Shown here in pieces: positions 123 to 63,881 of a DNA stretch of 64,000 bases. The DNA comes from Astropecten irregularis (Eukaryota > Echinodermata > Asteroidea > Paxillosida > Astropectinidae): positions 14,104,932 through 14,168,931 of the forward strand of contig OZ020254.1 in NCBI GenBank assembly GCA_963971285.1, given 5' to 3'. A program made the position numbers and the translations under genes. A model generated the notes under the pieces. That model did no database searches and had not been told where the DNA came from. It saw only the letters and a program-made list of their open reading frames with translations. Within the stretch, counting starts at the first letter, position 1. Every line of letters begins with the position of its first letter.

Positions 123-3100
123 TCATGTTGCTATGGTATGAGGGATGTACTGTATCACTCCTAGACATGATGATGCAAGGCACCCCTCAACAGGTGCATC
201 CATCACACATCCTACAAAGAGGAAAGCTGTGTCTTTAGTTTATTATACCTGGAATTGTAAGCCTACATCAATGCACCTGCCACCTGTGCTTGATTGCGTG
301 GGGGATTGGGACTGAACTTGCGGAAATTTGCATTAATTCATCATTTTTCAATTGCTTGATTCCTTTCATTTTAGCATTTTAGTTGGATGGGATAGGGATA
401 TTTTACATTCTCCAGGGAAAATTTAATGGAAATGGAAGCACACCCCATGCAATACATTGAGTTAATTACTGTCTAATATTTAACATTGTCTTTGTACCTG
501 TGTCTAATTCTTAAAACCTTAGAATATTTTTTTCAACGGTGCAGCTTTTCACATATTGATTTTCATTATTTTGTTATGTTGCTTTACAGTCAGTTCAGCA
601 ACTCTCTTTAAATGGCATTAAATATGAATTCATCAAACAGTATTCGGTTAGAATTAGTATTCGGTTAATTACTGTAACAATCTTAGGTACAATGTAAGCC
701 TACATAATGTAGGCTTATAATCTGCCTCAGCCTGACCATATATGTAGTTTGTGGCATCGCATCCGGGACATTTGTACAAACTATTGCTGAATGTATAATA
801 CATGTACTTTAGGCAATAACTGGGATTTATGCTGTCAATTGTAAACACTATTATGACAAAAGACTGCAAAATGTGAATGAAATGGAATTTAACCTATAGA
901 CCTTCAGATAAAACTGTATGCACAATTCACCCACTCATCGCACAATATTACACTTTATGTACATGAAACACTTACACGTATTGCCCAGTAGACGTACTGG
1001 TACGTGTATGCATGGACACTGGAGTAACAGACAGCCATAAAAGACCTTATTAATGGACGCTTAATTTGTCTCAGTTACAAGTTAACCAATTGGATACGTC
1101 GTCGAGACTCGGGACAAGGTTTGATGTACATGTAAATGTACAGGTATACATAATATGTCCCTGATCATGTGACGTACATGTAGCATTTTAGACATGATGC
1201 CAACAAATTTCCTTTGTACAGCTATACATCACCAAGGAGACCTGTAACCATGACAACAAGGACAGCATCCATTCCAATTTATTTCATATAGGTAGTTTTT
1301 TATGGTTACATCATCTTCATGATCTACGGATTGGTTCACAGAGATAATAGCTGGATGGAACCTATCCTTAACCATTATTTATCAAACAAATGCACGATAT
1401 ATGCAGGCATACAACCGGCTGTATAATTTATTCAACCATAATTTACATGTAAAATGGTATTCATCAGTTTTTCCACTCCAGCATCATTATAATAAAATAT
1501 GATACAAGTGTAGCACTGCAAAACCATGGTTAGTCTGTGAGCGTGTATGCCTAGCATTCAATAACCATATAAAATGTAATCATAAAAATAAAAAGGAACA
1601 ATTTCTAAACCAAACTCAAATTGCTTGAGTTTGAGGGGAAAAGGAACACATATTTAATATCAAATTACATTAATATTATATTATTACAACAATAATAATA
1701 TTTCCTTATTTCCTTAAAAAAAACTCAAATGAGCAATTCATTTTGAATACCACCAAATATTCAATTCAACATGAACCTAAAAAAACCTTATTGAAGTTTG
1801 AACTTGATACATTGAAAAGACCAGAATGGTCTCCAAAAATTGTACCATGTATGAAATAGGATACGCACAGCGTATGCTCCAATTCATCAAAGCAGTGGGA
1901 CACGGAGTGGATCCTGACAGAAAACAGCAGGACAGCTAGCCTGAAACACCCACATAAAAGAACAACCCCGAAAAACAAAAACCTATAAATACCAACAAAG
2001 GAGGTTACTGCACTTTTAGTACTCCATGTTGAGCCTGGGAAACAAAATACTTTCAGGAAATAATTACATTGAACATGGAATGGAAATTACATACCTAATT
2101 AATATTTAAATCAAATAATATACCGGTATGTGTAGGTCTACATGCACAATGTGGGCACACATACAGTGTACACGTATGCACCATCCAAACTGGGTCACTG
2201 GTAGAGTTATTTGCACACTTGTGGTCTTAACAGCCAGAGATTATATTGGAAATTCATCAATATCAGGCACCATAATCCATGGTTTCTTCTTCTTTTTTTC
2301 TTTTTTTGGTTGGGGGAGGGGTTGTTTCCATTGTTTTTGGGGGTGGTGGTGTCAGTTCAAAGGCCTGTGTTTTTCAAATTTGCTAACAATACATGTGTAA
2401 TATGAAGTTTGCCTCTGAAAATGAATACTTACTTTGAAACATAACAATTGATAATTCAATCCAAGAATTCAGAGTGGAGTGAAATTTGGGAAACATTGTA
2501 GTCAAATAAACACATGAATTTGAATATAGCTTTAGCATCCTGTTTGCTGGGTTTGGGAGGGTTGTGGACACCCTGATTTTCAAAACAAACGAGATCCTAG
2601 CTCAAATCACCTTTCGTGGAGCAGATTTTCTCTCGATGATTTTGAAATTGTTTTGCCAATTGATAGTAATTTGATAAATTAGAAAAGAGGGCTGATTGTA
2701 TAGCCTCCCCCACATACATGATAGTAATGACTCCGCCCCTAAGATCAATCATCCATATAGATCCAACCTATACAACTTGGAAAGTGGAATCAGCATTGCA
2801 TCAGTACATGTGTTTGATAAGTGGCATATTATTTCTCAGCATAGCTAGTCACTATAATTAATTAATCAATGAAATAATGTACATCACTTACATTATATGA
2901 TCCTTTTTCTATTGTACAGCATACATCCATGACTGTGAAGTATAGCAGTCAGTATGTGTGAGGTGGTCGGTGTACAAGTTGGCACTTGTACCATGCAGTA
3001 TGGCTGGTGGCAGAGTGCGAGTTTGTTCGTGGGAGGATCGACTCAAATTCAATTTTTAACTGGGAGAAATCACACTCAGGACAAACCTATGGACAAACCA

Positions 3101-4574
3101 TAGAGCTAGAGCTGTTCCTAGCTCTATGGACAAACTAAGGAATAAAGACTCACACAGAAAAAGAAATGTCACTAATAATGCGCAGTTCCTATATTGTAGA
3201 TAAATATATGAACAAAGCACAGTTACTAGTACATACACACTGTGTATATAAATGTATACTGTTTAGTGCACAACAGGGCCCAACAGTCTCAAAAAAATAT
3301 GGAAGATATTTGCAATTGAAAATTTTTCTCTCTTTTTTCCCAACAATTAATATGAAGAGGATGGTGCATATAATTCCGTCAACAAAGAAAGCTCATGAAT
3401 GTTAGCAAGGAAATAATACAATAAAGGTGGACCCAAATTCATTATTAATTTTAGACGAACACTCGGCAACTAAGGAAAGAGTTAATGATTGATGCGGTTA
3501 CCACATTGCTGGTCTAATGACTAGGACTGGGAACTATGGGATGAAGTGATTTATTAATATTATTTAGTCAGTATTTTCTATTTTAAACGAAAACATGGTA
3601 ATAATCAAAAATAAAAACAAAACTAGATATAAATTGAAATAAATAATATGAGAAAATCTAGATACAAACAGCAACTGCTCATCTGAGTCCTGTGAAACAT
3701 TTTTCACCAAAAAATTGAAAATTTAACTACTATGGAGTAATTTGACTGCTACAGCACGTCAACAGTGCATGGAGATCAATTTATGTCATGTTTTTATTTC
3801 ATTCCTTGCAACCCGAGCTCATACTATGGTAACAAACCAAAACAGAAATCTTCAAGGATTTACTTATAATTTTAATTTACAGGATATAAAGATTGACCTG
3901 GTACAAACTACAAACATACCATTAAAAATCTGCCGCCAGAAATTCTGTATTTATCCAGAAATGATTAATACATATCAAAAGACCTCAAAATGTTTTGATT
4001 TCTGAGATCAAAACCTCACAATTACAAACCTTACAATTTCCCGTAACAATTGGAACAGTTTTACGCTATTTTCTACTGTTTCCAATCATGTCGATTATCA
4101 ATTGAGCTGAACATTTCACAGATTTGTTTTTATTCCATTTTTAATCAAATTATGAACAGACTATCAACTTTACCAGAGTATGATAGGCTAGTACTACCTT
4201 TACAAAAAACACGGTTTGCATAGCTCCTCATAATCCGAGTACTACAACTAATACAAGGGCTTGCCTCTTTTTCACCTGAACATTAAATTCTCATTCAATT
4301 TACACGGGCCACTGGCATGGCTATAAAAATTGACCTGGGAGTAAACAAAAAATATCGAAAATCAAACGAAAGGTGTTTATCAGAAAGTACAGCCATGACT
4401 GCGGCGTGGTGGGAAAGTATTTATAATACGTGTACAAGTAAGTAGGCCTACTACAAAAAGTATTTTAGTGTACGTGACTTCGTCAGTGGCAACGGTGTTA
4501 TAAAATTTTATGACGTTTTGGTTTTACTTCAGTGACTTTTCAACTAGTCTGGGTTTTTTAGATTATGTACTTAC
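123..4574. other. Non-coding DNA, probable intron of a minus-strand gene
   Basis: No convincing exon was found on either strand. The DNA is AT-rich with scattered TACATGTA-type words and short homopolymer runs. If the minus-strand exon at 4,575-4,626 is real, its GT donor faces into this stretch, which would then be first-intron sequence with the next exon to the left of the window. The short open frames here lack splice context and codon pattern. Confidence 0.4.
3880..4175 (-). repeat. Degenerate MITE, second TTAA family
   Basis: The block reads in reverse the landmarks of the copies at 30,614 and 34,861: an AACAGTTTT word near a GATCAAAAC core, CAATTGAGCTGAACATTTCAC, and CAAATTATGAACAG near the end. 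The ends are worn, so limits are approximate. Confidence 0.5.
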
Positions 4575-5916: not shown

Positions 5917-6673
5917 ATGAAGAAGGTGGGGGCTGTAAAACCTATCGAGGGACTGGCTTTACATTCCGACATTACTCTAATTAAAGCGAATTGTGCAGTG
6001 AAGGATGACCGAGATGCATTCTCAAGGGCTGATCTTCGCTTTCCTGTGCATGAGTCAACATTGAGAGGCAGAGTAAGCATCTCTAAGTCCTCAGATCGGT
6101 AAACCCGAGCCAATGTTTAGCCTAGAAGGGGAGGATCGTTTGATTGAACATTTGAAATAATATGGCAGCATATGGATGGCTATAGAGTAGAGCATAAGGT
6201 GATTGATGATCGCAACGACTTATTCTGAGAGACTTCAATTAAAAAACGGAACCAAGACCATCCAGAAATCTCAAAAGTTGTTATCCAGTCCAGTGGCATG
6301 CACCACGAAAACCATGGTGTCTGAAATATCACAGAGTGATGCCAACTGTTCCGAGTCAGTGGTTTCATCTTATTGTTTTCAGACCTGGAGAAAATCCTCA
6401 AAAATACAAGTTGACATCTTCTCCAGAGCGTATACAATGATGAAAAGGAAGTAAAACAAGAACCACCAAAATAATGTAAAAACCACAGCATCCAAACTGC
6501 TACCAGCCATCACACCGGACAAAGGAATCCCACTGACAATTATTGGATGTGGCAAACAATGCCCTGGGCCAGCAAATCTCTCCATACTTCATCTTCCCTG
6601 GACAAAGAATGAGACAAGAACTGCTGCATGGCAGTACACATGGAACAGGGGCCTCCGTCAGCGCTATCGTGGT
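5917..6673 (+). pseudogene. Pogo/jerky-type (DDE_1) transposase, 5' part, broken
   Basis: Three pieces follow the order of a pogo/jerky transposase. At about 5,980-6,100 the frame ends in FPVHESTLRGRVS, like the second half of a psq-type helix-turn-helix (VPKSTLRDRV in relatives). At about 6,519-6,550 comes DKGIPLTIIGCG, and after a frame change ANNALGQQISPYFIFPGQRM, the strand region before the second catalytic Asp in DDE_1 proteins. Frames change and stops intervene, so it cannot make a working enzyme. The frame is open to about 6,673, where a GGGGCCGTCC terminal repeat begins. The match continues at 12,117. An open frame at 5,664-5,861 just upstream could be part of it but was not recognised. 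Confidence 0.65.
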
Positions 6674-6894
6674 TGGGGCCGTCCACGTACGCACGAAATG
6701 CCGACTTTTTTTTTTACCCCCTCCCCCTCTGTACGCATGGCGTACGCAGTGGTTCCCCCTCCCCCCCTTCGTGCGCGCGTACTTTATGGACCGGGAAAAC
6801 CTATAATAATAATATTATTATTATCATCATAATAAAAATAATCATGCAATAACCACCAACCATTAACTGCAAAGGGAAAAAAAGCAAAAGTTAA

Positions 6895-7384
6895 GCAGAC
6901 CGTCAGGTGTTCAGGGGCACGCGATTCACCGGGATTCTTTCACCCGGCTTACCGGCTCCCATAATAGTCCCCATAGGCTTACTGGCAAGCCGACTACTGC
7001 GTATCCTCCCCACCGATTGACACCTTAGCCTGACATGCAAAGCTCTGAAGGACTAAGAGGGAGAAACAAGGCGGCCCCTGGACCATCGCGGTGCCAGGGT
7101 CCGCAAATGCCATGTTCCATTCATGATCAGAGAGTCAGGATCGGGGAATCGAACCCAGGCTGCCGGAAGTCTGAGCGTTGGTACCGTCGCTTATCCCACC
7201 GAGCCACGAAGCGTTGGTGAAATCGCAGCCGTTTATAAATGTACTTAAATAATTATACCTGACGAGTGGCACAACAAAAAATAAATAAGTATTAAAGAAG
7301 TGGGATTCTGAGTCGCGTGATGAGGCTCGAACCCGGTGCACGCGACTCAGAATCCCACGTCCTAACCACTATGCCAGCACGAAC
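6895..7384 (-). repeat. tRNA-like SINE module with fold-back
   Basis: Two minus-strand tRNA-like segments lie in tandem. One (about 7,137-7,216) has box A TGGCTCGGTGG and box B GGTTCGATTCC. The other (about 7,325-7,380) has box B GGTTCGAGCC and is preceded by an inverted copy of its own 3' half. Nearly the same block occurs at 49,540-50,010, and the second half at 39,745-39,930. The repetition argues for a retroposed element, not working tRNA genes. Confidence 0.6.
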
Positions 7385-7472
7385 GTCTAAGATTTAACTA
7401 AGTTATTGTCGATCACTGTTCACGCAAAACCACTCGAGCATGTCCAGTACACTCTCAATGAAGAAGCCTTAA

Positions 7473-7702
7473 GCCCACCGCACACTATACGATCCGACTA
7501 GGACCCGACCGGTTTTTGGAAGGATTGCAAAGCATTCTGGGAGTTTTAACCGTGATTCGACAGTCGAATCTTGCCGACTGGCCATCAGAGTGGGTCTGCG
7601 ACTGGGAACAATCACGGTTAAGACTCCCAGAATGCTTTGCGATCCTTCCAAAAACCAGTCGGATCCTAGTCGGAATGTCGGATCGTATAGTGTGCGGTGG
7701 GC
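7473..7702. repeat. Palindromic MITE, GCCCACCGCACACTATACGA ends
   Basis: The arms GCCCACCGCACACTATACGA and its inverse pair over about 90 bp each, including GCATTCTGGGAG near the centre. A close copy lies at about 50,116-50,345. Confidence 0.75.
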
Positions 7703-7705
7703 TTT

Positions 7706-7845
7706 AGGCTGTGTCCCAAATCTCTGGCTGCGGCCGCAAATAACGCACAAGTCTATGGAAACGGCTGCAGTCACTGGCTAGTGGCTGCCATAGGGGCGTG
7801 TGTAATTTGTGGCCGCCGGCAGAGATCGATTTGGGACACGGCCTA
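7706..7845. repeat. Palindromic MITE, AGGCCGTGTCCCAAATC ends
   Basis: The ends AGGCTGTGTCCCAAATCTC and GATTTGGGACACGGCCTA are inverted repeats around a GCGGCCGC-bearing core. Copies lie at 40,018-40,158 and 50,348-50,481, twice directly beside the GCCCACCG palindrome. Confidence 0.75.
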
Positions 7846-8164
7846 ATAGGCCTTATTCGTGGCGCATCCATTTTGTCACCTTTCTTGTACAGTGTACATG
7901 TAAACCCCGAGGAAAAAATAACACTAATACGAAAACGGTTAACAGACTAATTTGAATCCAAGCCTTTGTTTGGTGCACTGCAAAAACTATGGTGTTAAAT
8001 CGTTACACGAAACGGGTGTTAAGCTATGGGTGTTAAATGTGGTGTTAGGACGGCACTAGCTGACACCACTGGGTGTAAGATCCACTTCACTTTTGTAATC
8101 CTTGTTGGTGTTAACTGTGTGTCCATAAAATGAATGACTTTTAACACCAATATGGTGTCAATCC

Positions 8165-8356
8165 CGTCAAAAGAGATCACGTGCGCGCAATCCGATGGTC
8201 CAATTGGTTGAAAGTTTACAGAACGAAAATTCTCCCGACGACATCACGCGCGCGAACGCGTAACGGCCATCTTGATTCTTGGACAACGTACGTGATCGAT
8301 TGTTCGTGTTTCCGTCGCTTGCCAGGGGTGAAGAATCAGAGAAAGATAGTTGTTTT
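8165..8356 (+). promoter_or_regulatory. CpG-rich promoter-like block inside the GTGTTA element
   Basis: CpG density rises sharply here against AT-rich flanks. Visible motifs are CACGTG at 8,179, a palindromic CCAATTGG at 8,200, several CGCGCG words and GGCCATCTTG, which resembles a YY1 site. It ends just before the ATG at 8,357. Function is inferred from composition and position. Confidence 0.45.
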
Positions 8357-9115
8357 ATGGCGACAACGAGAAGTTCGTAAATAGTGGTAAGTATAGTTTA
8401 TTATAGTTGCAACTGTATATTTTTTCAGTCGTTATTATGCAAGATGTTTGTGATTTTTAGTGATTTGATGCATCGCCTCAATCGCCTCACTGTGTAAAGT
8501 TAGGTTCGTACATACCCTGTATGGCGCCGTGTACGTATTAAAATTTCAAATCTCGTAAACTGCACAATCCGTGGCTAAATAGCCATACCAAGTATTATCG
8601 TTATATTTAGCCTATAATTCCCTAATTTTTCTTCTAATTGGTAAACAGAAAACACCCAGCACTGAAGTAAAAACAAAGTATGCCCGTGGAGTCGTGAACT
8701 TGTTCCCGTCTCTGAAAGATCCGCACACCATAGGAGGTCATGTAAGTATTTTTAGTCATATTTCTATTAAAGCTAATCCACAGAGATGTCGGCCTTCCGC
8801 AGGGAAAATAAAGTCCTGATTACATTAATTTCTTCTCGGCTCCTTATGGTACAAAAGAAAAGAAAAGTGATCATTTTCTGATAGGGCCTACATGTATCAG
8901 GAAATTTTGTGAGTATTTTAGGAATTTTAACTGAAAAAGAGACGTGTCTTGAGGGAAACTTGAACCCAAGACCCTCGTATTAAATGTATGCTTGGGCACT
9001 CGACCACATAAATCACATATAGGGCCTATATTGTTGTTATTATTGATGATTATTATGATGATGATGATGTATTCTTATCATGTGTATTTGTTCACAGCAT
9101 GCAGGTTACCACTGA
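8357..9115 (+). CDS. Candidate three-exon, 39-codon gene inside a transposon
   Basis: A spliced model holds together in phase: 8,357-8,376 (ATG in TTTTATGG, donor GTAAAT), 8,660-8,741 (acceptor CCCAG, donor GTAAGT) and 9,098-9,115 (acceptor TTCACAG, then a TGA). It totals 120 bases. The middle exon (VKTKYARGVVNLFPSLKDPH) is open only in this frame and looks like real protein. It resembles a short charged segment seen in uncharacterised animal proteins, but I cannot name a family. The model uses weaker sites: a stronger GTAAGT donor at 8,387 would include an in-frame TAA, and a nearer acceptor exists at 8,648. It may be the 5' part of a host gene caught by the element, with later exons lost. 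Confidence 0.35.
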
Positions 9116-10969
9116 GAACATCATGATGTCCTAATGTCACTGAATGTACTTGCTGGAACAAAATAATGGTCAGTAGAGATATGGAGAAAACTATTTTTGG
9201 GTATCAGGTTTTGTGTGTGGTTCAAAATTTATGTTTCTTTATAACCATGGTAAATTTTGCAGCTGAAAATGCACTATTTTGAAGATTGAAAATGTAACAT
9301 TGTTATGGTAAACAATTAAGATTGCATGGTGCTAGTTGGGGTAATTAGGCAGTTGCAAGATACATGGCCTTTTTGCATCCAGATTGTTTGACCGATGAGA
9401 CTGATATTTGATATTGCATGTAATACATGTAATATTTCAATACAAATTTCCATTCTGAGCAATTGGGCCATGTACCTTCAATTTGGGTTAGGCCTACCTT
9501 TCCAGAATCAACATCTATACTACCAAGAATGGGAATTGTATTCTGGTTGTCCAGATATTATTTATCCCTCCTCACTTTACTGCTTCAAATCATTAAGGCC
9601 CCAAGTTGTCTCTTGTCCCTGCGTGTTTGCTCATGTAAATTAAAATGTCTACATCAAAATTTATTGATCAATATTTATTCGCCATTTTTCAAGAAAATGT
9701 TCCATAGTCGGTGAAAGAATGGGTCAAACCCTTTTTTTTGGGGGGGGGGGGGGGTTGGGGGTGAGAGCATCAACACTCATCAAACCCCATTTTCTGGTTG
9801 CCAACAACTACATGTACCTACATTTCTCAGTTTCTACAGCCACTGCTGATAAATACATTAAAAAAACAACACTGTATACAGCTTTGCATTTTGAAGACCC
9901 CAGGGACAAGAGACAAACATTATTAGATGTGGCATAGAGGGTCATATTTTGGTCTTAATTTCAGATTGTTTCGAGGCAGCTTACTTGACGAGTTGAACCC
10001 TACTGATCTCATTTTCACACAAAAAGTCAAAAAAGCAGGGAGCCCTGTCAAAAAAAAGGAACAAATTCAAACTGGCCTCCGATTAAAGTGAACATTTAAT
10101 ATATTTTCCCCTGGTGACCCATCTTTCTTACTAGTAGTGACTAAAAATAATTGAAATATCAAGGAAACCATTTTTGTAAAGGTTTCTTTAAAACTGGCAA
10201 AAGCTTCAAAAATGGTTTCATTGACAATCATAAACATTATTTTATTCGCCACTAGTACAAAAACAAAACGCAAAGATGGCCTACCAGGGGAAAATTAATC
10301 AGCTTTCACTAAAAGTGCGGCCATTTTGAAATTGATACATTGCTTTTCTTCGGGGGGGGGGATGTTGTTGTTGTTGTTTTTGTTTTTAATGGGATCAGTA
10401 GACTTCAACTCATCAATTTAGCATGTTCTCTAAATAATCTCTGAAACAATGACGTATATAGCCCACCTTTTTTTTGCCTTATACTAGTTCTACAAATATT
10501 GTTGCAAGTGTTTGTCAAATTTCATATTGTTTAGAATAGGCCGGTGTTGTACACCGTAAGTTGAAATGCATTGTATAAAATTAATTTGAATGATTCAGAA
10601 TTGATGGATTTTGGGGACTATTGAATTGAAATTAATGTAAGTTCTAGAAAGATTGTTGCAAGTGTTTGTCAATTTTATATTTTACAGAATAATTTGTTAT
10701 GCAGTGTATGAATTTGAATGTATTGTTGAGAGTTGAGACTATTAAATTTGGAATTGTCAAAAGAAGTTTATTTCTGTCTTTCTTCCTCTGTAAAAGTGTA
10801 TGCGTGTAACAGAAATTGCTTGTGTTTTCAAATAATTATGTCTTTACCACAAAAGGTATATTTTGCTCAGTTCAAGAGGAATTTCAGGATTACCTTTGTT
10901 TGCAGTCCAACCACCTAATCAAGCAGCCTACAGTATTTGAATTGTAAACGCCATTATGTGAGTATTAAT

Positions 10970-11503
10970 CTACATCACCTACAAATGTTAAATCTACATC
11001 ACCTACAAATGTTAATTTACAACACCCATATGCGTGTTATTATTACACCTATAGGTGTTTTAAATTAACACTAGTGGGTGTGAATTTACACCCAGTGGTG
11101 TTTATTTTACAACACCTATGAGTGTTATTATTACACCTAGAGGTGTTGTAAATTAACACCTGTGGGTGTGAATTAACACACACAGGTGTTAATTTACAAC
11201 ACATATAGGTGTAATAATAACACCTGTGGGTGTGGTGTTCGATTATTGAATCCAGGATGGTGTTGTTTTAACACCAAATAGTGTAAACTAGTTACACTTT
11301 CTGTAGTGTTAAACCAGCACTGTTACCGGTGTTGACTTAGTATAACACCCAGATACACCCAGTGGTGTTGCATTTAACACCAATACTGTAACACCAGTGA
11401 TGGTGTCATTTTAACACTATGTGGTGTGGACCTATAGTGAATCCAAACTAGTGTTAAATTTAACACCCGTGGTGTTGAATTTAACACCATAGTTTTTGCA
11501 GTG
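10970..11503. repeat. Array of alternating GGTGTTA / TAACACC motifs
   Basis: About thirty copies of GTGTT(A/T) or its complement alternate at irregular spacings of roughly 10-25 bp, often as AACACC-N-GGTGTT inverted pairs. They continue into the right terminal repeat. Subterminal motif arrays of this kind usually bind the transposase. Confidence 0.8.
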
Positions 11504-11628
11504 TGGAAGGAAGGAATCTGTTTTCCTTCCTAAGTTCCTCCATGGTTTGGCTGAAGTGCTTCGAACGCAGGATGGATGCACTGTGAAAAACGGTCTATAA
11601 AAACGATGCATCTATAGCTCTCTTAAGG

Positions 11629-11890
11629 GCCGTCCATAAAGTAGGCCTACGTACGCACGAAATGCCGACTTTTTTGCCCCCCCCCCCTCCCCCTCTGTAC
11701 GCATGGCGTACGCAGTGGCCCCCCCCCCCCCTGTACGCATACGCATTCCATATTACGTCAGTTTCACTTCTCGTGGTACCTCGCTTTAGCATCATTAAAA
11801 TGTGACAGTAATCCGTGCCGGTACCGTTATAGGGAAGTCACTTTCAAATTTTGAAATGAATGACTAAAGTGTAACAGGTTTTTATACATT
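11629..11890. repeat. GGCCGTCCATAAAG / GTACGCATGGCGTACGC repeat
   Basis: The consensus order is GGCCGTCCATAAAG, CGTACGCACGAAATGCCGAC, a pyrimidine tract, GTACGCATGGCGTACGC, poly-C, CATTCCATATTACGT, and a tail with GTACCTCGCTTTAGCATC. Closely matching copies are at 43,680-43,925 and 47,687-47,960, and fragments at 6,674, 12,040, 39,695 and 44,230 (inverted). Confidence 0.8.
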
Positions 11891-12116
11891 TTACAGATGT
11901 ATTTTACTATTTCTTATTATGTTGAATAAGAAAAAAAGGAAACAATAAAACAAATCCCGCTGCTTCTTTTTCTCATTTTTTCTCTCTTTTCGCGCGATAT
12001 GATTATGCAAATTTGTTCGTACCGTATTGGCCTGAACCCCCTCCCCCTGTACGCATGGGGTACGCATCGGTAACCCCCCCCCCCCCCCCTTCGTGAGTAC
12101 GTACTTTATGGACGGC

Positions 12117-13192
12117 CCCTTGGTCCAAATCGGAGATCCGTCATGGATTACCTGGAAAACTATTTCCAGAAGTTTGTTCAAGGCCGAACGGATGACAAGG
12201 TTCTCCTCCTTGTATGATGGTCACAAGTCCCCATGTCTCAATTTCAGTAATTGACTGATGGGCAAAACAGCACAATATTTAGCTGTTTGTTTTGCCTCCG
12301 CACACGAGCCATCTTCTCCACCACTGGATGTTGGCTGTTTTAGACCCTGAGACGAAACTCGGCAAGTACGTGCACTGCCATTGACAAATTCTCCATCTGC
12401 GAACTTGCTTGTAAAACATACACAGTGGCATCATCACCAAGCAATCTTCGCAACTCGTTCAAGAAGACGGGGATGTTTCCCTTGACTTTCCCGTAACTGG
12501 GCATGAGCGCTGAGCCACTGACTGACGACAACTTTATAAGTTGTGGTCAGTCAGTGGCTCAGCGCTCATGCCCAGTAAAGCCCTTGTGAATAGGTCAGAG
12601 AGTACCAGTGCGCATGGTCAGTCCAAATGTGTGAAAATGTCTGGAGAAGAAGGACTAACAGTAAGGAAGACTTATTTGGTCACAGAGAGCAACAAATGGG
12701 TCAGAGAAAAAAAAGAACAGAAGAAATGAGGGTACCTGAGCACCATTGTCGGTGGCAGAGCAATCACTGAGGAAACTGTTTATCGGAAAGTCCAAGAACA
12801 CATATCAACTGCATCAAAAAACACAGAACAGCTGACAATACAATGTATCACATCATCAAAGGAAAAGAAATGTTGCCTTAAAAAGAAATCAGCCTGCACA
12901 AAATAATGTGTCACCATCAACACAACTTGAACCATCAACCACTGGAGTTGCAAGTCTTCAATGGCAAAATCTGTCAAGTGGATCTAGTGATGAAAGTGAC
13001 TCTGGTGATAGCTGCTGTGTCTGTCACAGACCAAAGAACTTGCCAATTCTATGTACTTTATATCCTGGGGACAGTGTATGCATGGGACCATGCAGACACA
13101 AGGTTCAGGTTGCTCGACTAAGGACAAATGATACGTTTCATTGCTCCTCAGTACCACATCACCGCAGCGCCGCAGAAGAGTGGGAATGCTAA
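12117..13192 (+). pseudogene. Pogo/jerky-type transposase, 3' part, broken
   Basis: This resumes the frame interrupted at 6,673: MDYLENYFQKFVQ and DDKVLLL are followed after one frameshift by YDGHKSPC, the DGHxS box with the second catalytic Asp of DDE_1 transposases. Then comes PPLDVGCF, matching the conserved PLDVGxF motif near 12,320-12,345. From 12,496 an 81-bp inverted repeat disrupts the gene. At about 12,985-13,190 an acidic serine-rich stretch leads into DSCCVCHRPKNLP, resembling the cysteine-rich tail of jerky-like transposases. Stops and shifts are plain, so it is dead. Confidence 0.65.
12496..12576. repeat. Inverted repeat (hairpin) within the transposase remnant
   Basis: ACTGGGCATGAGCGCTGAGC on the left is matched by its inverse GCTCAGCGCTCATGCCCAGT on the right around ACTTTATAAG. 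It looks like an inverted duplication of transposase sequence, since the frame runs backwards on the left side. Confidence 0.8.
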
Positions 13193-40324: not shown

Positions 40325-40637
40325 CCGCCACTTATATCTCGCGGCCGCCACTTAGTAAGTCGCAGTCGCCATTTATTATCTCGCGGCCGCCACTTAGTAT
40401 CTTGTGGCCGCCACTTAGTAAGTCGCGGCCGCCAGTTACTATCTCGAGGCCGCCACTTAGTTGCGGCCGCCAGTAATTATCTCGCCGCCGCCACTTATTA
40501 TCTTGCGGCCGCCAGTTACTATCTCGGGACCGCCACTTAGTGGCGGCCGCCAGTAATTATCTCGCCGCCGCCACTTATTATCTTGCGGCCGCCAGTTACT
40601 ATCTCGCGGCCGCCAGTTACTATCTCGCGGCCGCCAC
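40325..40637. repeat. Minisatellite, GCGGCCGCCACTTAGTATCTC unit
   Basis: About 15 imperfect units of roughly 20 bp alternate GCGGCCGCCA with CTTAGTATCTC or GTTACTATCTC. Most units keep a NotI site (GCGGCCGC). The long plus-strand frame across it is just the repeat read as codons. Confidence 0.9.
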
Positions 40638-41321
40638 TTTCAATGCAATTGAAAACATGCGCAAAACATGCTAGAAAATAATAATTTATATACTGGATTT
40701 TCTACGGTTCTCTGCTGGGGTCTGCCCCCCCCCCCCCACTCCCCCCCCCCCTCCCCTCCCCCCAAAAAAATGCATTTGAAAAAAGAAATGCTGAAAAATA
40801 TTGGATCTTCTTCACACTGAAACGGTCTATGGGCTTCAAAAGTGGACATCTGCTTTTCTGCTCTCCAAGTAGCAGAAAAGCAGATCGAAAGCTTTTGTAA
40901 AATGCGCTTTTCTACTTTTCTACTTTTCTACTTTTCTGTTAGCAGAAAAGCAGATCGAACGTTTTGTTTAAAATGCACTTTTCTGCTTTTCTGCTTCCAG
41001 AAAAGCAAATGTTACTTTTTACTCGTAACTGGCGGTTCAAAAGTGGACATCTGCATTTCTGACTTGCAGAAAAGCAGATTGAACCTTTTGGATAGATCCA
41101 CTTTACTGCTCTCCTGCTTTCAAGAAGTCGGACATCCTCATATCAAGCAGACTTTCACGTTGGAATATCTTAGAGGGGCTGTCCAATTTATGTAGGCCTA
41201 TCATGAATTTTCCGTCTATAATTAAAATTAGGGGAGGAGAGGGCGACTGGGGTGGGGCAACGAATTTTCATGGGCGTGACCGGGACGTGTGGGCTTTCTG
41301 TCCCTTTGTTTCGGGCCGGTA

Positions 41322-53516: not shown

Positions 53517-56500
53517 ATGACTGCTAAGGGGAGCCCTATGGGCAGTCTGGTCTTTAAATGGGATCCCAAGAATCTGGAGATCCGAACCTACTCAGTGGAG
53601 AAGACTCTGGAACCGTTGGTCATGCAGGTATGTAAGCATAATGTGTCTTTCATGGCATGGTGCAGAATTGTTACGACCCCCACGAGGATTGTTTATTTCC
53701 TGTGTAAGAAAGTGCTGTATGTGAAGTTGATATTTGTATTTATTCTCCTATGAAGTATTTTCCTGTGAAATGCTCTAATCGTCAAGATTTAAACTGCATC
53801 TAATTTGTTAATGCCACATATAAATTACACTGGCTGAATTTGGTTGTTACAAACAAAATTTCATCTAATAGGGAAACAGGAACATGCGCAAAATCATTAT
53901 AAAAACAGAAGCCTTTATTCACTGTTTTCTTAAAATTCCCATTTTGATGAAATTTTCTAGAACTCCCTAATTTGTCATGTACGTTGGCTGGATGGATTTG
54001 ATTCCCTCTGATAACTATTTTCTTCTGTCATAAGGTTCCAAGTTTTAATAGATGAGGTGTTGGGCCAATAAAATTTTGAACTCTGCATTCCCCGTTCTGT
54101 CCAGGTCACCACTCTTGTGAAGACTCAGCCGTCCAACCGAAAGAAAGGCCACTCCAAGAAAGCCCACGTCCTAGTGGCAGCCGTTGCCAAGGCAACAGAG
54201 GCCTTCATCAAGAAGGGGGAGGAGATTGCCAATGAAATTCATGAGATCCGGGAGCAGATGCTGGAGACAGTGGCTGATGTTAGAGAGAAAGGTCAGGACA
54301 GGACTGTGTGATACTATGGATTATTCACAATGTATTTTGAACATTATAGTCCTGTAATGAACTGTCAATGTAATAGGTTTTGAGGATGATCATTTACACT
54401 GCCTAAACCACTTACATATACACCTACATATTTGATTGAGCACTCATAATTTTGAGAGCTGAATGGCATATGCGTAGCATTCTAGAGTTTCATTGCAGTG
54501 TTGGTTTATGACTTTTTATCACACAGCTACATGTATGGAGGAATCTGTATGCATTCCAACTAATCTAAAACACACTTGCAAAGTATAAATTCAGCTGGCA
54601 TTTGGTATGACGGTTTAGCATGTTCTAGGCTGTATATTCCACCCATTTTCCAAAGGATATGTGTGCCACCTGGGGCCTAATTTAATGGCACTGCTTGCTG
54701 AAAGCGTACAGTTTTTATTTCATGGAATAGTTAGGGATATTCAGCTGTGCGTGTGCATAGTTCATGTTACAAAGGATTGCACACTTTCTAGCATAGACAT
54801 TCGGCGCTAGGCCAGTAAGCAAAGAATGAAGATTATAAGTGCAGGAATATGCCGTAAGCAGAGCTGGAAGCATTAGCATACGTGTAGCATACTTGTAGTC
54901 ATCCTTCAGAAATCAATATATTCACCTGCAACAGGAAAATGCAAGAGTAATTCTATAGAATATTAATAGGATGGTTAGGTGACGTTTCACTGACACCGTA
55001 CACTGACCAGACTGCCTTTTCCCCCCATAGGAGACATAATGCACAAGGCATCCTCAGAGTTTGCCGATGATCCGTGCTCTTCCATGAAGAGGGGATCCAT
55101 GACCAGGGCAGCCCGTAATCTCCTGTCAGCAGTAACAAGACTCTTGATCATGGCTGACATGGTAGACGTACACCTGCTCCTCAAATCTCTCCAAGTGGTG
55201 AGTTTAACATGCTAACTTTGCCCCAGCTCCTAATGGCTTAAACCTGAACTTCCCAGATGCTTTAAGGATAAGTCTTTTGGGGGACTGTGAAATCAACTTT
55301 CTGATACCAGAACCCTTCAAACTTTAAGTATGTCCTTCATTGTCAGGTGGAAGGGGACCTTGCTCAGATCATGAGATCCAGCAATCAGAAGGACCTGGCA
55401 TCCAGCTTCAAAACCTTTGGCAAGGACATGATGGAATTCAACAAGCTCCTGGCTCGGCGACAAAATGACCTGAAAGATCCACGCCAGCGCGATGAGATGG
55501 CAGCCGCCAGAGCAGACCTGAAGAAACATAGCACGATGCTGCTGACTGCATCTCAGGTACAGTCAGGTCACGTGGGCCTATTCTTTATACCCTCGACCCA
55601 GGATTTTTTTTTGGAGGGAATCACCATCAAACTTCCAAACACCAACAATGTGCTGCATCTCTTACCTGGTCTTCAAGCCCCAAAACTAATATGTCTGGGT
55701 CTTATGGACCTTTGGCTTCAATCTCTGTGTCTAGGTCATGCCACTAAGCCCACATAAAAAGATGGTATCAGGGCCTTACAAAACACTGTTCATCAAAGTC
55801 CAACTTTATGCTGAGAGGGGCATTGGTGAGGCTAGTGTTAATGATGACTATGTTAATGATATTCTATGTGAGAATAAATGCCTTAGATTGAATTGAATTA
55901 TCAGACCTGAGAATGCAGGTACTTCAATGAATGGTTTCTGTGGAAGTAAAAACAACTGAGGGAAATGTCTCACCCTCTAAACTAAACTGTGACATTGATG
56001 CAAAACTAAAGTTGGTAGTGACAAGTAGTTTCCATTCAACAAGAAAAAAATATTCAAAGTTAAAGATTGCTGTTACAGTCTAGAATTAAAGCTGATTTTC
56101 AATGATTGTATGATTACAGGTCTTTTAACACAAATTCTTCCAAACTGTACTTTGCAGGCTTATCTTCGACATCCAGATGTGCCTGCTGCCCGTGAGAATC
56201 GTGACTTTGTCGTGAAGCAGCTAGAGGGCGCTATGAACACCATCTCGTCCGTGTCGCAGGCTCGTGCAGACCAGCCACTGCACGCTGATGTTGAGGGAAC
56301 TGGTGAGCTGATAGCTGCATTGGATGACCTGGATGTAAGTTTCCTTAGGCAGCAATCACTTCCTGCATATCGTTCCTGGCTTCCTCTTCTGACTTCCCAA
56401 CTGAAAATGGAAAATTTTCATTAAATTTGTTTGTATGGTTAACCCCTTCTGCCCATTTTGTTTTGTTTTGCTTTGTTTTTACCGGCTGGGCTATGTGGTC

Positions 56501-59500
56501 AGAGATCTCAGTTGAAACAATATGGACACACAATTGTTGAATACTGCTGGACAGTAGCCCAAATCTCAGGTGTCATTGCAGCTGTGTTTGGAACTCACAG
56601 ATTGCATCTGCATGAAAATGCCGATCTATTCAAATGCAAATCAAGGGAGTAAATGTACCACAATGAACAAATTTAAGGGACAATTTAAATGTTCATTTAA
56701 CCTCTTGTTCCAGACAGTACCCAAATTCAGTGTGTTTCAATGGAAATAACAAAGCATGGATATTATCATGCCATGAGGTGAACTTCTATGTCAGCTGCTT
56801 CCGGAGCAGAAGGGGTTAAAGATCATGCTAACTTCTAGCCTTTAAGGATAATATGTGTATGTCTTGCATCTTGCTACTGTGTTGCACATCAGATATCATG
56901 TCATAGAACGTTCTAAATGTATGCACTTATCAAGTAACTTTCAACTAAATACTTTCAATCTAAATACCAATTTTGTGTTAATACCTTGTTCCTCAATGAC
57001 GTGCCCCCTCTCTTCCCCCTAGCGTAAGATCAAGATGAGTCCCACAGAGTACAATGAGGTAAGGACCCGACCCTCCTTGGAGGAACAGCTAGAGAGTATC
57101 ATCAGTGGTGCAGCCCTGATGGCTGACTCCTCCTGCACTAGAGATAACAGACGGGAGAGGATTGTAGCAGAGTGCAACGCTGTCAGACAGGCCCTACAGG
57201 ACCTCTTGTCCGAGTACATGAACTGTGTAAGTAGTACAGGCAGGGGTCGATTTCACCAAACTTATCATAACTCATCGTAAACTCATCGTGACTATCAGTT
57301 GTAGGACTTATGATGCATTGCAGCCCTACATTGGATATCATGGTTTATCCTTCATAAGTCTAGTTACGATCGATTGTAGGGCTTCGTGAAATCTACCACT
57401 GAGAAAGTACGATTCTAATACCACATTTTAAAACCTGATTAAAAACCTACCATTTTATGTGTATCTTTTACTTGCATGTTCATGTCCTCTTGTCATTTAG
57501 CCTTCGATAAAGATCCTGCTAGGATCGAAACGTATCAGGCCCTCTTACTCCAAGCATTTTATAAATTTCAGGTCATTATTTTGGCTGATGAACATTTTGC
57601 AGCAGTTTTTACTTATAGTAAATACCTATAAAATGAAAATTGCCATAGATGATGGTTTTCTTAATAAATGTTTGGTTGAATTTTGTTGTTGTGTTCCAGG
57701 CTGGTCGCAAAGATCGCAGCGACCCTCTGGATCAAGCCATCGATCAAATGTGTGGCAAAACCAAGGACCTACGTCGACAGGTACATGTGAATTTTGGCCC
57801 TTTGCTTCTTAATTAAAGTTTTGACCATATTACATTCTTTACAATCATGTAAATACGGTAAGAAGTAGTCTTTTTGTTTTAATTGTTCATTTTATTTCAT
57901 ATTAGTATCCGTACTCTTCCATTTATGTTGGTTAATCAATAAGACTTAGTGGTATTCAAACCTGACACCTTTAGCTTGCCAGTATTACCCAGAGTTTTTC
58001 GGAACTAGAGATAGATGCTATGTGTTGCGTCTGGCCAGATGAAAGGGGCTACCTGTACATTTTATAGATGTTGTGGCGCATCCTGGAGGGGGGGGGGGGG
58101 GGTTGTTGGAAGCATGATGGGTATAGACATGTGCAAATCCTATTATGCGTGGATCCGGATATCTCAACAATAATGAAAATTATAAATAACTTCCTAGGGC
58201 CCTTGTTTTTTTTGTACGTGTTTGAATTGTGCTTAAAACAAACGTTTACATGGTGTTCTTGAGGTGAAGGATATGCAGGATGGTAAGAATGTGGATAAGA
58301 TATCCCCCCCCCCCCCCCCCGCCAGTGACCAATAAAAGACAATGACACCATGGACCGTGTGTTGAGTGGCCTGACATAAGAGTAACGTTTATATTTTGGA
58401 AAAGTCTGTTGACCTCCGAAGTATATACAGTATTTAAGATAATTATTAATTTTTTTTTATCAATGAGGGTCCAAACGTGAAGCATTTGTGGAGGAGTACA
58501 TGTATGATCCAGCAGGAAGTATACTCCCCTCGCAATGGCGATTGCTTCATTGTCATAATTATGTATGTCATCACTCACAAAGTGAAGCAAGTATGGGAGC
58601 AAGGGAACAACCTCTCGAGAGGAGTATGGGGGGAAGTGTCGTGGCAGTATTGGAATGCCCTTATAGGTACACTCCCCTGGAGAGTGTACCTATAAGGGCA
58701 ATGTGAACATCAGAATTCTGCACCAGATGCATGCGTATTTACTGTACGGTGTAAATTAATGACCCGAAATTTCCCGATATTTGAGTATACTTTGGCGTTA
58801 TAAATCAACATTTTCTCTAAGCATGACAGGCTGCTGAATTTGGTACGAGATGAACACGTGGGGTAAATGTGCCATGATTCGGACACTTAAGCAATTTGGG
58901 ATTATTTGATTTTCTTAATGTTTGTTTCTCTCAACTATTTTCACTTATGAACAACAAAGTGTAGTTATTATATCAAGGTTGATATGTTATGAAAGTTTTT
59001 TGTGTCCTTGAAATGAAATTGACTTGAAACATAACCTTAATTTTTGCCATGATTCGGACACCCTGTCCATGATTCGGACACACATGAACAAATGCTGAAA
59101 AAACATGCCTTGCAAAATAAATAATACCTCATTCAATGCAGTGGGCAAATTCTTAAGTTGCCACCATTTATTTTCCCCCAAAAAGTGTAATTTGACTGCT
59201 CAGAACTCAAAAAAGAAAATTGGTGCATGGACACATCCAGGACTTATTTTCAGAGTTTTTGAAGGCAATGCCCTGATAAAAACGGGCCATTTCAGCCATA
59301 TCGTGAAATTGGACTCCATTCCGTCCGTGTGATCCCGTGCGCTCGACTCTAGTGTGTACAAAGTCAATGGCGTAGATATTAGACTCCAGCCATTGACGAA
59401 ATGAACGGCAGTCAATGGAGTGGAGTGTAAATTCGGGAGATGCCGGCATTTCTTCTAAAATGGAACACACACAAGCCCAAAATTATTTTGGCATATTTGT

Positions 59501-62500
59501 TAGCGTCTCTGGGGGCCTGGGTAGCATAAATCAATGGAGTGTCAAAAATCATGGCACATATACCTTGGCTTCTGGACAAGGAAATTTATGCAAGTTCAAA
59601 TTGGCAACGCAGCTCTCCATAATTTGGACCTTGATGGTATATTGATGAACAGAATATACCAGTTTCAAATAAAAAAAATCCTGTTAAATTTAATTAATTT
59701 TCTGTGTTTTTAAATAATGCATTTTCTCACAACCCTATTTTTAACAGGGCTCTTAAGTTAAGGATCACCCTTTTTTTTTAACTTGAGGTTGTGCCCCAAT
59801 TTCCTATCAGAAAATGTGACATTTTATAATAGGAATTGGATCATGTAAAGTATGTGGCACCGTTGTTTAGTCAAATAGGCCCTAGTGCACCTATCGGAAA
59901 GAATTCCACTGATGACCATAATTTGTGCACAACTCTATAGAACCAACAGAGGGCGTTTTGAGCAAACTGGCTTTGTACAGTTTGTAGGTAAAAGAACCCT
60001 ATAAAACTCACTTTTCAGATATTCTACGCAAGTTTCCCACACCTGAAATGGAGGTTTATCATAATTTGTATCCAATAAGTTAACTCTTGGAGGATATAAT
60101 CCTTTTTCCGTAATGGTGATCAGTGGAATTCTTTCCCATTTGCATTTGCACATTTCCGAGCATCCGAATGCTTCCGAAAACGTTGCTTCCGAAGACCTGC
60201 CGAAGATGACGTTCGTTGTGACGTCACAGGTCATTTAAATAAAGTAATAAAATCCACTTTTTGGCTCAGGTATATACTGTTTCGTATTTTTTTCAGCGTT
60301 TCCAACCCTCTTGAAACCATTCTAAGGCGTTCCATGAGAAACAATGTCAAAATGTTGACTACAACATACATATCTGGGGCATTTTTGATCATTACCAGAT
60401 TTTTTTCTACGAAAGTAATTAAGAGTGTTCCGATAAAGCCCTAGTCGTGTGCAGCGCCACCTACCGGTGGTTCCGGGAACATTGCGTCTAGTAAGTAACA
60501 AGCTACAAAATGTCAACTTATCCACTATCTGCCAATTAACAGGGTTTTAAACCCACCATAAACGATTCTTATTCATTTTATCCAAACTGGAAAGTCATCA
60601 GTTGAGATGTCGTCAGGCTGTTTAGCTTTTCAAAGACAATAAACATGGTTTTTCTCTAATTGTTTCAGTTAATGTTGATAGCAACTTGGGTATTGTGTAT
60701 ACCATCTGAAAAGCTCTTGTTTTAGCTCATTTCATTGGTAGTAATATGATGTACTCTAATCCGACGAGCGATTCATGTAGTTGGCCGTGCGGTGTATGTA
60801 TACCCCACAGAAATAGTGTGATGAAACGTAAATCCTTTTGTTCTCATAGAAAAGACAGGCGAGGACACTGCAGTAATGGCGGATGGTATATATATCTCAA
60901 TATGGGTGATGTGCATTCTCCCTTGAGTTTCAGGATGCCTAGCCAGAAATGTTCATACAGCATTTTTTTCAGATAAATCATTTTTTGTTTGTTTGTTTGT
61001 TTGTTTTGTCAATAGCTGCGGAAGGCTGTTGGTGATCACGTTTCAGACACCTTCTTGGAGACAAACATGCCCCTGCTGGTGCTGATTGAGTCGGCCAAGA
61101 GCGGAAATGAACGAGAAACTGAACACTATGCCGGCGTCTTCAGAGAGCACGCTCAGAAACTGGTGGAGGTACGTAAACAGGAACCTGATTGGCCAGTTAT
61201 ATGGAGCTGACACTGGGACTAGGGTGGATGATTGAGAACAGACAGCGTGTTCTGTTGAAGGTGTTGTACCACACTCAACATGGTATAATATCAGTCTATT
61301 AACAGTGCTTTATTTATGAGAGACTGGCATTACTGTGTACTGTCTGGAGTTGCTGTGGTCACAGACATGCTGTGTCAGTCATGAACTTAACGCTCATAGT
61401 TCTGTTCATCATATCATCCTACCAACTTAACCTCTTGGCTGGGATCATCTAGGTGAATTGGAATGTGTGTAGAGCGGGGTACCTCAGTCTGACATGAGTG
61501 TGATGTTACGATTTCTGCCATTGAGAATATACTGTTAAAATGAGATCTTGCCTTGGTTGTTTGCACAGGTTGCTCATCTGGCCTGTTCCATGTCTAACAA
61601 TGAAGATGGCGTGAAGATGGTGAGGATGGCCGTAGCACAGATAGAGACACTCTGCCCTCAGGTGAGAATCCCCTCCCCAGTCCCCACCTCCCTCATGATT
61701 GACATTTAATTCAAAGACCCATGCAGTGATAATGTCTCGCTTCAGTTACATTTGCACTTTTCATGTTGAGGTCGCCAGGGACACAAAAGACCTGTTTGTT
61801 TAATGCACAAGGATACAAATCCTGCAGATCCGGTCCCCATTTTAGCGCAGGAACCCCAAATCTGGGATCCTAGATTTGTGCATTAAACAAACAGGCCCAA
61901 GATTCTAAGCTCTGTTGAACAACACTTGTGTAAAGACGTGCTTACAAAGGTCCGTTCAGGTTTCTTTAGATAACTTCCTCTTGTGTGTAGCTTTTACCTT
62001 GAGAGACCTTAAAGGTGCAGTTGTACAAGATATTATTAACATTCGATGTACCAGCCTATTTAACATCAGCACGCCACATGTGGCATAATTGATCTGTGGC
62101 AACTGTCTTCCTCATGTATCCAGGTCATCAATGCGGCTCGTACCTTGGCGGCCCGTCCCAGGAGCCAGGTAGCCTTGGAGAACATGGATGTCTTCAAGGG
62201 CCAGTGGGAGACACAGGTCAAGCTGCTGACCGAGGCTGTAGATGACATCACCACCATTGACGACTTCTTAGCTGTGTCTGGTCAGTCCATTTAGACAATA
62301 ATGGCGTAATGTTTGATTCTTCTAAGTCTTCTAACTTCCAATGTTTCATCGCTTACCCTTCTAGTCATGATAATGAGTATAATACACACTGTAATTTGAT
62401 CGAAAATTTGATTGCATCTTCAGAGGGTCACATCTTGGAGGATGTGAACAAGGCTGTCCTGGCCTTGCAGATGGCGGATGTAGATGGCCTGGATCGGACC

Positions 62501-63881
62501 GGTGGGGCCATCAGGGGACGGGCAGCCCGCATCTGTGGAGTGGTGGATGCCGAGATGCAGAATTACGAGCCTGGCCTGTACACGGACAAAGTCAAGGAAG
62601 CCGTACTGATGCTGCAGGATCAAGGTGATACATTAACCCTTCCTGCCTAAGTCCTTAAATCCCTAAGTCCTTGTAGTCAGTACTGCTTCAAACCATTTTC
62701 TCGACCCTGTCTGACCAACAGATATGTCTGGCATATGTTTAGCTGATGGGTTCAGGTCGGAGGACATCCATAGCAGTCCCCCGTCATGGCCTGAGAATAT
62801 TCATGATTGCTTTGTTATTTCCATTGAAATGCATTGAATGGGGTTACTGTCTGGCACAAGAGGTTCTGGGAACCTTTATTGTCCACAAAGATACGCTCAT
62901 TGTGGTACATTCATCTCCATAATTTGCATTTGAAAAGATCTGCATTTTCGAGTGGACCGCAATCTCTGAGTTCCCAACATCTGGGCGTGAACGGATTAGA
63001 GTGCGCCTTAAATGCGATCTTTTGTGCAGTGCTATTCAAACAATGCGTGCCTTTATTGTTTATGCCGAGCACCCTCCACACAAAGCCGGGCCAGATGACC
63101 TCGGAACAAGCATGGCTGAAAATAATCCCGGGCTGAAGGGGTTAATGAGTACTCAGTGCTTTAATCATTGCAATATCAATCGATATTCCTCAGTTTTTTT
63201 TTCTGTCTAGTTGCCTGTCTCTGCCTCAGTCCTGTAAATCATAATCACTGCCTCGGACGCCCAGAATCGATCAATACTTCTTGCTTTTGTTCTGTCATAC
63301 AGTGACCAAAGAAATGTCAGTAGATCAAAAGTCAGTGCAAATTTGCACAATAGATGTTTAAACCTATAACATCATGAGGGCGCCCTTTGGTAGATGGAAA
63401 AGGCAGTTACAGTGGATCGCTACTATCATGAACACCGCTATACCAAACATTTGGCTATACCGAACATCATCCTTGACTCCCAATTTGTGTGTACAATACA
63501 TACCCAATATGGTTCTTTAAATCACTATAACGAACGACCACTTTAACAGACATTATCTGTGTATCCCATCGTGTTTGTTATAGTGATGTTCCATTGTAGC
63601 TCATTGGCCCATCCTGTTTGATTTGATTATTTCATCACCGTTTTGCCTCCAAGATATTGATGTGATGGCGCCAGTACATAATACTCTCTGACTAAATGTC
63701 CTGATTGTTCTTGTTCTTCTCTGTGATAGTTATGCCACATTTCACTGCCAGGGTGGAGATTGCAGTTTCTGCCCTTAATTCCAACAACCCACAGGACGTA
63801 GATGAGAATGAGTTCATTGACGCATCCCGTATGGTGTATGATGGTGTGAGGGATGTCCGAAGAGCTGTACTCATGAACAGG
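53517..63881 (+). CDS. CTNNA1: Alpha-catenin, 12 coding exons, 3' end beyond window
   Basis: Coding exons: 53517-53627, 54105-54291, 55031-55197, 55347-55556, 56158-56334, 57023-57226, 57700-57780, 61016-61168, 61569-61661, 62124-62280, 62424-62624, 63730-63881. Every junction keeps phase and gives 631 residues from ATG 53,517. Identity is secure by order and wording against vertebrate alpha-catenin: FKWDPKNLEIRTYSVEKTLE, KKAHVLVAAV, FADDPCSS, LLSAVTRLL, EEQLESIISGAALMADSSCT, RRERIVAECNAVRQALQDLL, DTFLETNMPLLVLIE, DDITTIDDFLAVS, DVDGLDRTGGAIRGRAAR, DENEFIDASRMVYDG. Residues about 55-260 are the beta-catenin-binding/dimer N domain and about 280-630 the M region, whose vinculin-binding helix is conserved. 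The F-actin-binding domain lies to the right. It links cadherin-catenin complexes to actin. Donors at 54,291 and 62,280 are GTCAG rather than GTAAG. Which vertebrate paralogue it matches best cannot be told; invertebrates usually have one. Confidence 0.97.
57247..57402. repeat. MITE, TCGATTTCACCAAACTTATC family
   Basis: GGTCGATTTCACCAAAC at the left and TTCGTGAAATCTACCAC at the right are inverted. Alpha-catenin intron. Confidence 0.65.
57498..57615 (+). repeat. GATAAAGATCCT repeat, third copy
   Basis: Same order of words as 29,020-29,140: CCTTCGATAAAGATCCTGCT, CAGGCCCTCTTACTCCAAGC, TTTGGCTGATGAACATTTTG. Here too it lies near a splice acceptor (57,699), about 85 bp away. Confidence 0.75.
58080..58335. 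repeat. Poly-G / poly-C bounded repeat
   Basis: CATCCTGGAGGGGG at the left and a long C-run with CGCCAGTGACC at the right suggest an element with G-rich inverted ends like those at 30,186 and 41,322. No target duplication found. Confidence 0.35.
58657..58703. repeat. Perfect short palindrome
   Basis: TGCCCTTATAGGTACACTC and its exact inverse GAGTGTACCTATAAGGGCA are separated by only a few bases (CCCTGGA). It would form a strong hairpin. Alpha-catenin intron. Confidence 0.85.
58850..60240. other. Intronic DNA with a GATTCGGACAC repeat and an inverted pair
   Basis: CATGATTCGGACAC occurs at about 58,873, 59,050 and 59,070. GGAAAGAATTCCACTGATGA (59,898) and its inverse TGATCAGTGGAATTCTTTCC (60,117) enclose about 240 bp. 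No coding frame with splice context was found in this 3.2-kb intron. Confidence 0.45.
63410..63596. mobile_element. Pogo/Tigger-like MITE with TA flanks
   Basis: The left end CAGTGGATCGCTACTAT with GAACA and the right end TGTTTGTTATAGTGATGTTCCATTG are imperfect inverted repeats, flanked by TA. It is 187 bp, in an alpha-catenin intron 130 bp before an exon. Confidence 0.65.

Follow-up and report, generated by a model that had tools for sequence, protein, structure and literature searches.

The locus examined here raises a simple question: where does a putative mini-gene that sits inside a transposon come from? At positions 8165 to 9115 of a 64,000-nt stretch of the genome of the sea star Astropecten irregularis (hereafter, the window, which is part of contig C18), a CpG-rich block is followed by three short exon-like segments, and the whole lies between two arrays of the motif GTGTTA. 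The first-pass annotation read these segments as a spliced mini-gene carried by a nonautonomous element and offered two origins for it, the captured start of a host gene or a micro-protein encoded by the element itself. We addressed this question by comparing the element with its copies and relatives in the 475.7-Mb genome assembly. The feature is very probably a defective, internally deleted CACTA/EnSpm-like (CMC-type) transposon that retains remnants of the exons of its own ORF1.

A young nonautonomous element

The element occupies positions 7976 to 11503 (plus strand; 3,528 bp) and is flanked by a TG/TG target duplication. It is bounded by perfect 25-bp inverted repeats that start with CACTGCAAAAACT, the 5' copy at 7976 to 8000 (plus strand; CACTGCAAAAACTATGGTGTTAAAT) pairing with the 3' copy at 11479 to 11503 (minus strand). 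The GTGTTA/TAACAC motif is found 6 times in the first 200 bp (7976 to 8175) and 16 times in the last 550 bp (10954 to 11503), as opposed to means of 0.1 and 0.4 expected in these two ends from mononucleotide shuffles, and is absent from the 2,778-bp interior, so that the two arrays do lie on both sides of the CpG-rich block, as originally described. This clustering at the ends resembles the subterminal repeats of CACTA elements, as characterized in PMC2613891.

Five copies of the element were found in the genome, on C18 (the window copy), C12, C29, C9, and C22. Identity to the window copy is 99.5% for the C12 copy, 99.1% for C9, and 99.4% for C22, while the C29 copy aligns in two pieces around an insertion (98.8% over 3,392 bp and 100% over 171 bp). 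All five copies have the same CACTG...CAGTG ends, and each is flanked by a 2-bp target duplication (TG, AA, TG, TT, and CA). The inverted repeats, the copies, and the target duplications bear out the presence of a nonautonomous DNA transposon around the putative mini-gene. The family of the window element is young, well delimited, and nonautonomous, with five copies found and full-length relatives in the same genome.

The insertion in the C29 copy, at element position ~171, is ~0.5 kb long and displays an apparent 13-bp duplication (element positions 159 to 171 are present on both sides), a retroelement-like mark.

Full-length relatives encode a transposase

Two full-length relatives of the element were identified, one on C4 (C4:180747-190140; 9,394 bp; target duplication TA) and one on C2 (C2:63534-73495; 9,962 bp; target duplication CA). 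In both, the terminal repeats match those found in the window element, and the 5'-to-3' order is the same: a GTGTTA array, a CpG-rich block, exon 1, further exons of ORF1, and a transposase ORF. The ORF1 exons include a counterpart of the middle exon of the putative mini-gene, which is found at 3,173 bp in the C4 element and at 2,844 bp in the C2 element. The transposase ORF comprises 798 amino acids in C4 and 789 in C2, and the two are 55% identical to each other. The C2 transposase contains one in-frame TAA within the aligned range, so the C2 element itself may be dead. When seven transposases of this genome are aligned, the D, D, and E residues and the H(3)H motif are found in all seven and the C(2)C motif is found in six; the matches to Pfam Transposase_21 are weak (E = 0.0056 and 16.3 bits for C4; E = 0.027 and 14.1 bits for C2; curated cut-off, 28.6). 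The earlier statement that no transposase explains the mini-gene is contradicted by these long, transposase-bearing relatives in the same genome.

ORF1 may resemble proteins annotated as SAMD3-like. A Pfam search with the joined C2 ORF1 peptide returned only MMS19_N, at an E value of 0.13, below the cut-off, and a PDB sequence search with the same peptide returned nothing. A literature search for SAMD3-like or EnSpm transposons in sea stars yielded no paper, a result that concerns that search and not absence from print or from Repbase. We infer that the ORF1 product is a TNPA-like binder of the subterminal repeats. At loci on C25, C1, C10, C12, C14, and C19, the transposase comes first and is followed by an ORF1-like exon on the same strand, which is the reverse of the order in the C4 and C2 elements.

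The CpG-rich block

The block at positions 8165 to 8345 (plus strand) has a CpG observed/expected ratio of 1.84, versus 0.67 in the whole window. As many CpGs are found in just 10 of 6,382 sliding 181-bp windows, of which 3 represent the block itself and 7 fall at 40.3 to 40.5 kb. This other CpG peak of the window is a CpG-rich tandem array at positions 40325 to 40639, which consists of 21-bp units (in an 80-bp higher unit, with 89% matches) and contains a NotI-like GCGGCCGC.

The motifs reported previously are all present in the block: CACGTG at 8178, CCAATTGG at 8200, and, at 8266, GCCATCTTG, which we take to be YY1-like. All four elements compared, the window element and three relatives, have a CpG-rich block at ~150 to 450 bp from the 5' end and an ATTGG at a similar position. 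The full-length C4 and C2 elements have CpG observed/expected ratios of 1.5 to 2.0 at 151 to 450 bp. CACGTG and CCAATTGG are also kept in a partial relative at C4:94119, and the YY1-like GCCATC core is shared, among the four, by the window and C2 elements only. The suggestion that the block is a promoter fits its position, where a promoter could be expected, and the block was probably the promoter of the ancestral ORF1.

It is conceivable, if unlikely, that this block still serves as a mobile promoter and first exon, with the CpG-rich sequence and the strong GTAAGT donor firing in the germline or embryo and the transcript being spliced into neighboring host DNA or the truncated ORF1 exon. The 5' block and the middle-exon region occur together also in a deletion derivative on C8 (see below), as might be expected if the layout recurs under selection and not by chance. 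If this were the case, the resulting transcripts, chimeric or regulatory, could bind to the GTGTTA arrays that related elements carry or compete for them. Beyond the transposon annotation of this species, the element matters little unless the retained promoter proves active.

The middle exon belongs to ORF1

The middle exon is located at positions 8649 to 8741 (plus strand). It is open over its 93 nt (31 codons), reads KTPSTEVKTKYARGVVNLFPSLKDPHTIGGH, is preceded by CAG and followed by GTAAGT, and shows no variants among the five copies. A genome search for this exon retrieved the five element copies and 14 other places. The best of the latter are C4:183922 (58% at the amino acid level; E = 3.4e-6) and C2:66377 (63%; E = 1.2e-5), both within the full-length relatives, and the remaining matches have E values from 0.013 to 1.2. 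The donor, CAT|GTAAGT, is common to the window and C4 elements, whereas the acceptor phase is 0 in the window element and 2 in the relatives. Nucleotide differences fall mainly in third codon positions (9, 8, and 16 in the first, second, and third positions, respectively, versus C4 and 9, 9, and 17 versus C2), and dN/dS, calculated over 31 codons only, is ~0.29 versus C4 and ~0.20 versus C2, as expected of an exon that was once under selection. Thus, the middle exon is indeed open and protein-like, as first proposed, and its homology to the C4 and C2 exons identifies it as an internal exon of the transposon ORF1.

The first-pass annotation had also asked whether any related protein exists and whether other copies carry stops in this exon. 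A related protein does exist, but as a transposon ORF; the exon is free of stops in all five copies of the element, but stops are found in the related C8 derivative. A Pfam search with the 36-amino-acid joined peptide retrieved no family, and a tblastn search of phage records with the mini-peptide retrieved nothing, as expected.

These matches bear directly on the proposal that the transposon has captured the start of a host gene, i.e., a CpG promoter with the first exons. Plant CACTA elements capture pieces of host genes, and a promoter-like CpG block with splice-like exons inside a transposon is what such a capture could look like. However, full-length transposons of this genome contain counterparts of the block, exon 1, and the middle exon alike, arranged in the same order. 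Furthermore, a same-strand transposase is located within 4 kb of 11 of the 14 noncopy matches and within 10 kb of 12 of them, counts that were obtained by comparing coordinates with 56 listed of 139 transposase candidates; the other two matches, C1:5660487 and C1:10364201, have no neighbor among these 56. None of the 19 genome-search matches represents a host gene outside transposons that contains the middle exon. Because the related exons sit in transposons, the captured host gene start is not borne out and is very unlikely, and the preferred reading of the mini-gene is that of a remnant left by a transposon gene after deletion. The case illustrates how pieces of a transposon's own gene may be mistaken for the start of a host gene when no autonomous relative is available for comparison.

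The joined exons

In a micro-protein reading, the element would encode a functional product, such as a truncated ORF1 protein that, like truncated transposon repressors, would control related elements and bind to the subterminal repeats. The selection that acted on ORF1 in the past, the middle exon that is unchanged in all five copies, and the intact GTGTTA arrays as possible targets would all suit such a protein. However, with copies this young (~0.5 to 1%), 93 unchanged nucleotides are no sign of selection, and the reading frames around the middle exon make this explanation highly improbable.

The end of exon 1 is located at positions 8338 to 8386 (plus strand), with the donor GT at 8387; in the relatives, this segment is coding, with a phase 1 donor. 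Exon 1 of the C4, C2, and C4:94119 elements has the same GGTAAGT donor and a related peptide, and the coding exon 1 of the full-length relatives ends with ...TKIVSFKGDREEFAEN in C4 and ...RKKIVLFSGEYEDFVEN in C2. The respective terminal peptides are GDNEKFVNS in the window element, GEYEDFVEN in C2, and GDREEFAEN in C4. In all five copies of the window element, the residues K-I-V-V that precede GDNEKFVNS are in another frame, so exon 1 is frame-shifted with respect to the relatives, and no ATG opens its phase 1 frame. When exon 1 is joined to the middle exon in the phase used by the relatives, a stop follows after five codons (ENTQH); this is seen in the four copies in which exon 3 was located, and the fifth copy shows the same stop.

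The frame that was originally drawn fares no better. The three exons had been said to join in phase into 39 codons and a stop; the actual count is 38 codons (2 + 31 + 5) between two stops, as this frame has a TAA two codons upstream of the first junction and no in-frame ATG. The sole ATG of exon 1 yields MATTRSS*. The third exon (positions 9098 to 9115, plus strand; HAGYH*) has no homologue in the relatives compared, with no match in the C4 or C2 element, and carries a 2-nt insertion in one of the five copies, the one on C22. Judging from these comparisons, the parent gene probably had no such exon. The micro-protein as drawn is therefore not supported, and, as far as can be told from the sequence, the remaining exons of the window element make no protein.

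Openness alone is not unusual in the window: on its plus strand, an open, YAG-bounded stretch of 80 to 200 nt ends at 42 of 99 GTRAG donors and at 13 of 24 GTAAGT donors, so it is homology, not openness, that makes the middle exon real. Although these 42 donors show how easily exon-like stretches arise, two independent elements give significant protein matches to the middle exon, with the same donor position and a third-position bias, which leaves a negligible probability that it is a chance segment with no coding history.

Probable origin by internal deletion

The order of the ends, promoter block, exon 1, and middle exon is shared by the window element and the C4, C2, and C4:94119 elements. 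The last of these (minus strand) is a partial relative of the 5' part of the window element, 79 to 80% identical, with the 5' end, including the promoter and exon 1, matching at 80% over 535 columns. Along C4:94119, the 5' end is followed by an ORF1 exon at 7.2 kb, which is missing from the window element, and then by the end of the middle exon at 10.0 kb. The end of the middle exon and the following intron of the window element (positions 8702 to 8824, plus strand) are collinear with it, at 74% over 133 aligned columns. Similarity to this relative extends to 8557, and the middle exon starts at 8649, which would place the junction of a 5' internal deletion between 8558 and 8648. C4:94119 looks decayed, with an in-frame TAG in exon 1, and contains no convincing transposase in the 14.1 kb examined, its 3' end being outside that stretch.

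The clearest parallel is the 3,358-bp element on C8 (C8:31754218-31757575; target duplication CG), which aligns with the C2 element in three collinear blocks (C8 positions 1 to 461, 904 to 2091, and 2089 to 3358 correspond to C2 positions 1 to 471, 2790 to 3893, and 8663 to 9962, respectively). The stretches between the three C2 blocks have been lost, including nearly the whole transposase, and the C8 element is, on this alignment, an internal-deletion derivative of a C2-type element. Like the window element, it is short (3.4 kb) and keeps the 5' end with the promoter and exon 1, the middle-exon region, and the 3' end. Unlike the window element, it is of C2-type origin, has stops in all three frames of the middle-exon region, and still contains the following ORF1 exon and the last transposase codons. 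Since the layout of the window element is of this kind too, the simplest account of its structure is that an autonomous element of this group underwent internal deletion. The main gap in this account is the ~2.1-kb interior at positions 8825 to 10950, most of which lacks a clear counterpart in C4 or C2. No direct autonomous parent of the window element was found, C4:94119 being the closest relative of its 5' part, so that the deletion is deduced from comparison with mostly diverged elements.

Three loci with near-identical 3' ends, C9:22435261, C11:10790835, and C15:4564294, were considered as possible parents but probably do not qualify, as there is no transposase match in ~1.5 kb on each side. 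At three more, C9:6443974, C9:6562719, and C30:776431, ORF1-like matches with 1 or 2 stops each are found ~1.4 to 1.5 kb before matching 3' ends, and these may be further deletion derivatives.

Based on these comparisons, the ancestral autonomous element would have been ~9 to 10 kb long and would have consisted of a terminal repeat, a GTGTTA array, the CpG promoter, the ORF1 exons, the transposase ORF, a second GTGTTA array, and the other terminal repeat. Internal deletions would then have eliminated the entire transposase together with two sets of ORF1 exons, those from intron 1 up to the middle exon and those that follow it, leaving the 5' end with the promoter and exon 1, a single ORF1 exon (the middle exon), and the 3' end. 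Such a shortened element would keep what a transposase needs in cis, namely, the terminal repeats and the subterminal array; it has recently spread to at least five sites, presumably by means of a transposase that a related element provided in trans.

Classification and comparison with known elements

According to PMC12730594, elements of the CMC/CMCT clade have CA..TG termini, 2- to 5-bp target site duplications, and a DDE transposase in which C(2)C and H(3-4)H motifs are located between the second D and the E. The window element has 5'-CA..TG-3' termini (CACTG...CAGTG, with the perfect 25-bp repeat), and its target duplications are 2 bp long in all five copies, as they are in the C4, C2, and C8 relatives. 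The DDE transposase is found in the full-length relatives, the window element itself having lost it. With these termini, this duplication size, and the DDE motifs of its relatives, the element is assigned to the clade that comprises CACTA/EnSpm, Mirage, Chapaev, Transib, and their relatives as a whole, rather than to a tree-based branch of it. Plant CACTA elements make 3-bp target duplications. None of the five copies has one, and the tnp2 (Transposase_21) matches of the C4 and C2 relatives fall under the Pfam cut-off.

Among known systems, a close parallel is with the defective Spm/En elements of maize (dSpm/I), which, in PMC2613891, are described as generally being internal-deletion derivatives that keep the terminal and subterminal repeats and are moved by proteins acting in trans. 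The window element is likewise shortened, with its ends and subterminal repeats kept, and would likewise be mobilized in trans. It differs from dSpm/I in its animal host, its CACTG rather than CACTA ends, and its 2-bp rather than 3-bp duplication.

Neighborhood of the element and the assembly

Directly upstream of the element, two MITE-like foldback repeats are arranged end to end at positions 7465 to 7710 and 7704 to 7846, with arms that are 94 to 97% and 79% complementary, respectively. A near-perfect hairpin at positions 12496 to 12576 has 39-nt arms (97% complementary) and a 3-nt loop. An Rfam search of positions 6000 to 12500 returned nothing. The mitochondrial COX1 on C168, when translated with AAA as Asn, TGA as Trp, and AGA as Ser, a code associated with echinoderms, has the usual STNHKDIG start, which makes an echinoderm host probable. 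Elsewhere in the assembly, a second COX1 gene at C131:32162-33484 is open without TGA, and the mitochondrial COX1 on C168 needs TGA to be read through; the second COX1 suggests that C131 is a bacterial contig. Farther right in the window, plus-strand exon-like ORFs at positions 55305 to 62647 have matches in the Vinculin family (E = 2e-18, 4e-13, and 9e-23), which points to a vinculin or alpha-catenin type gene.
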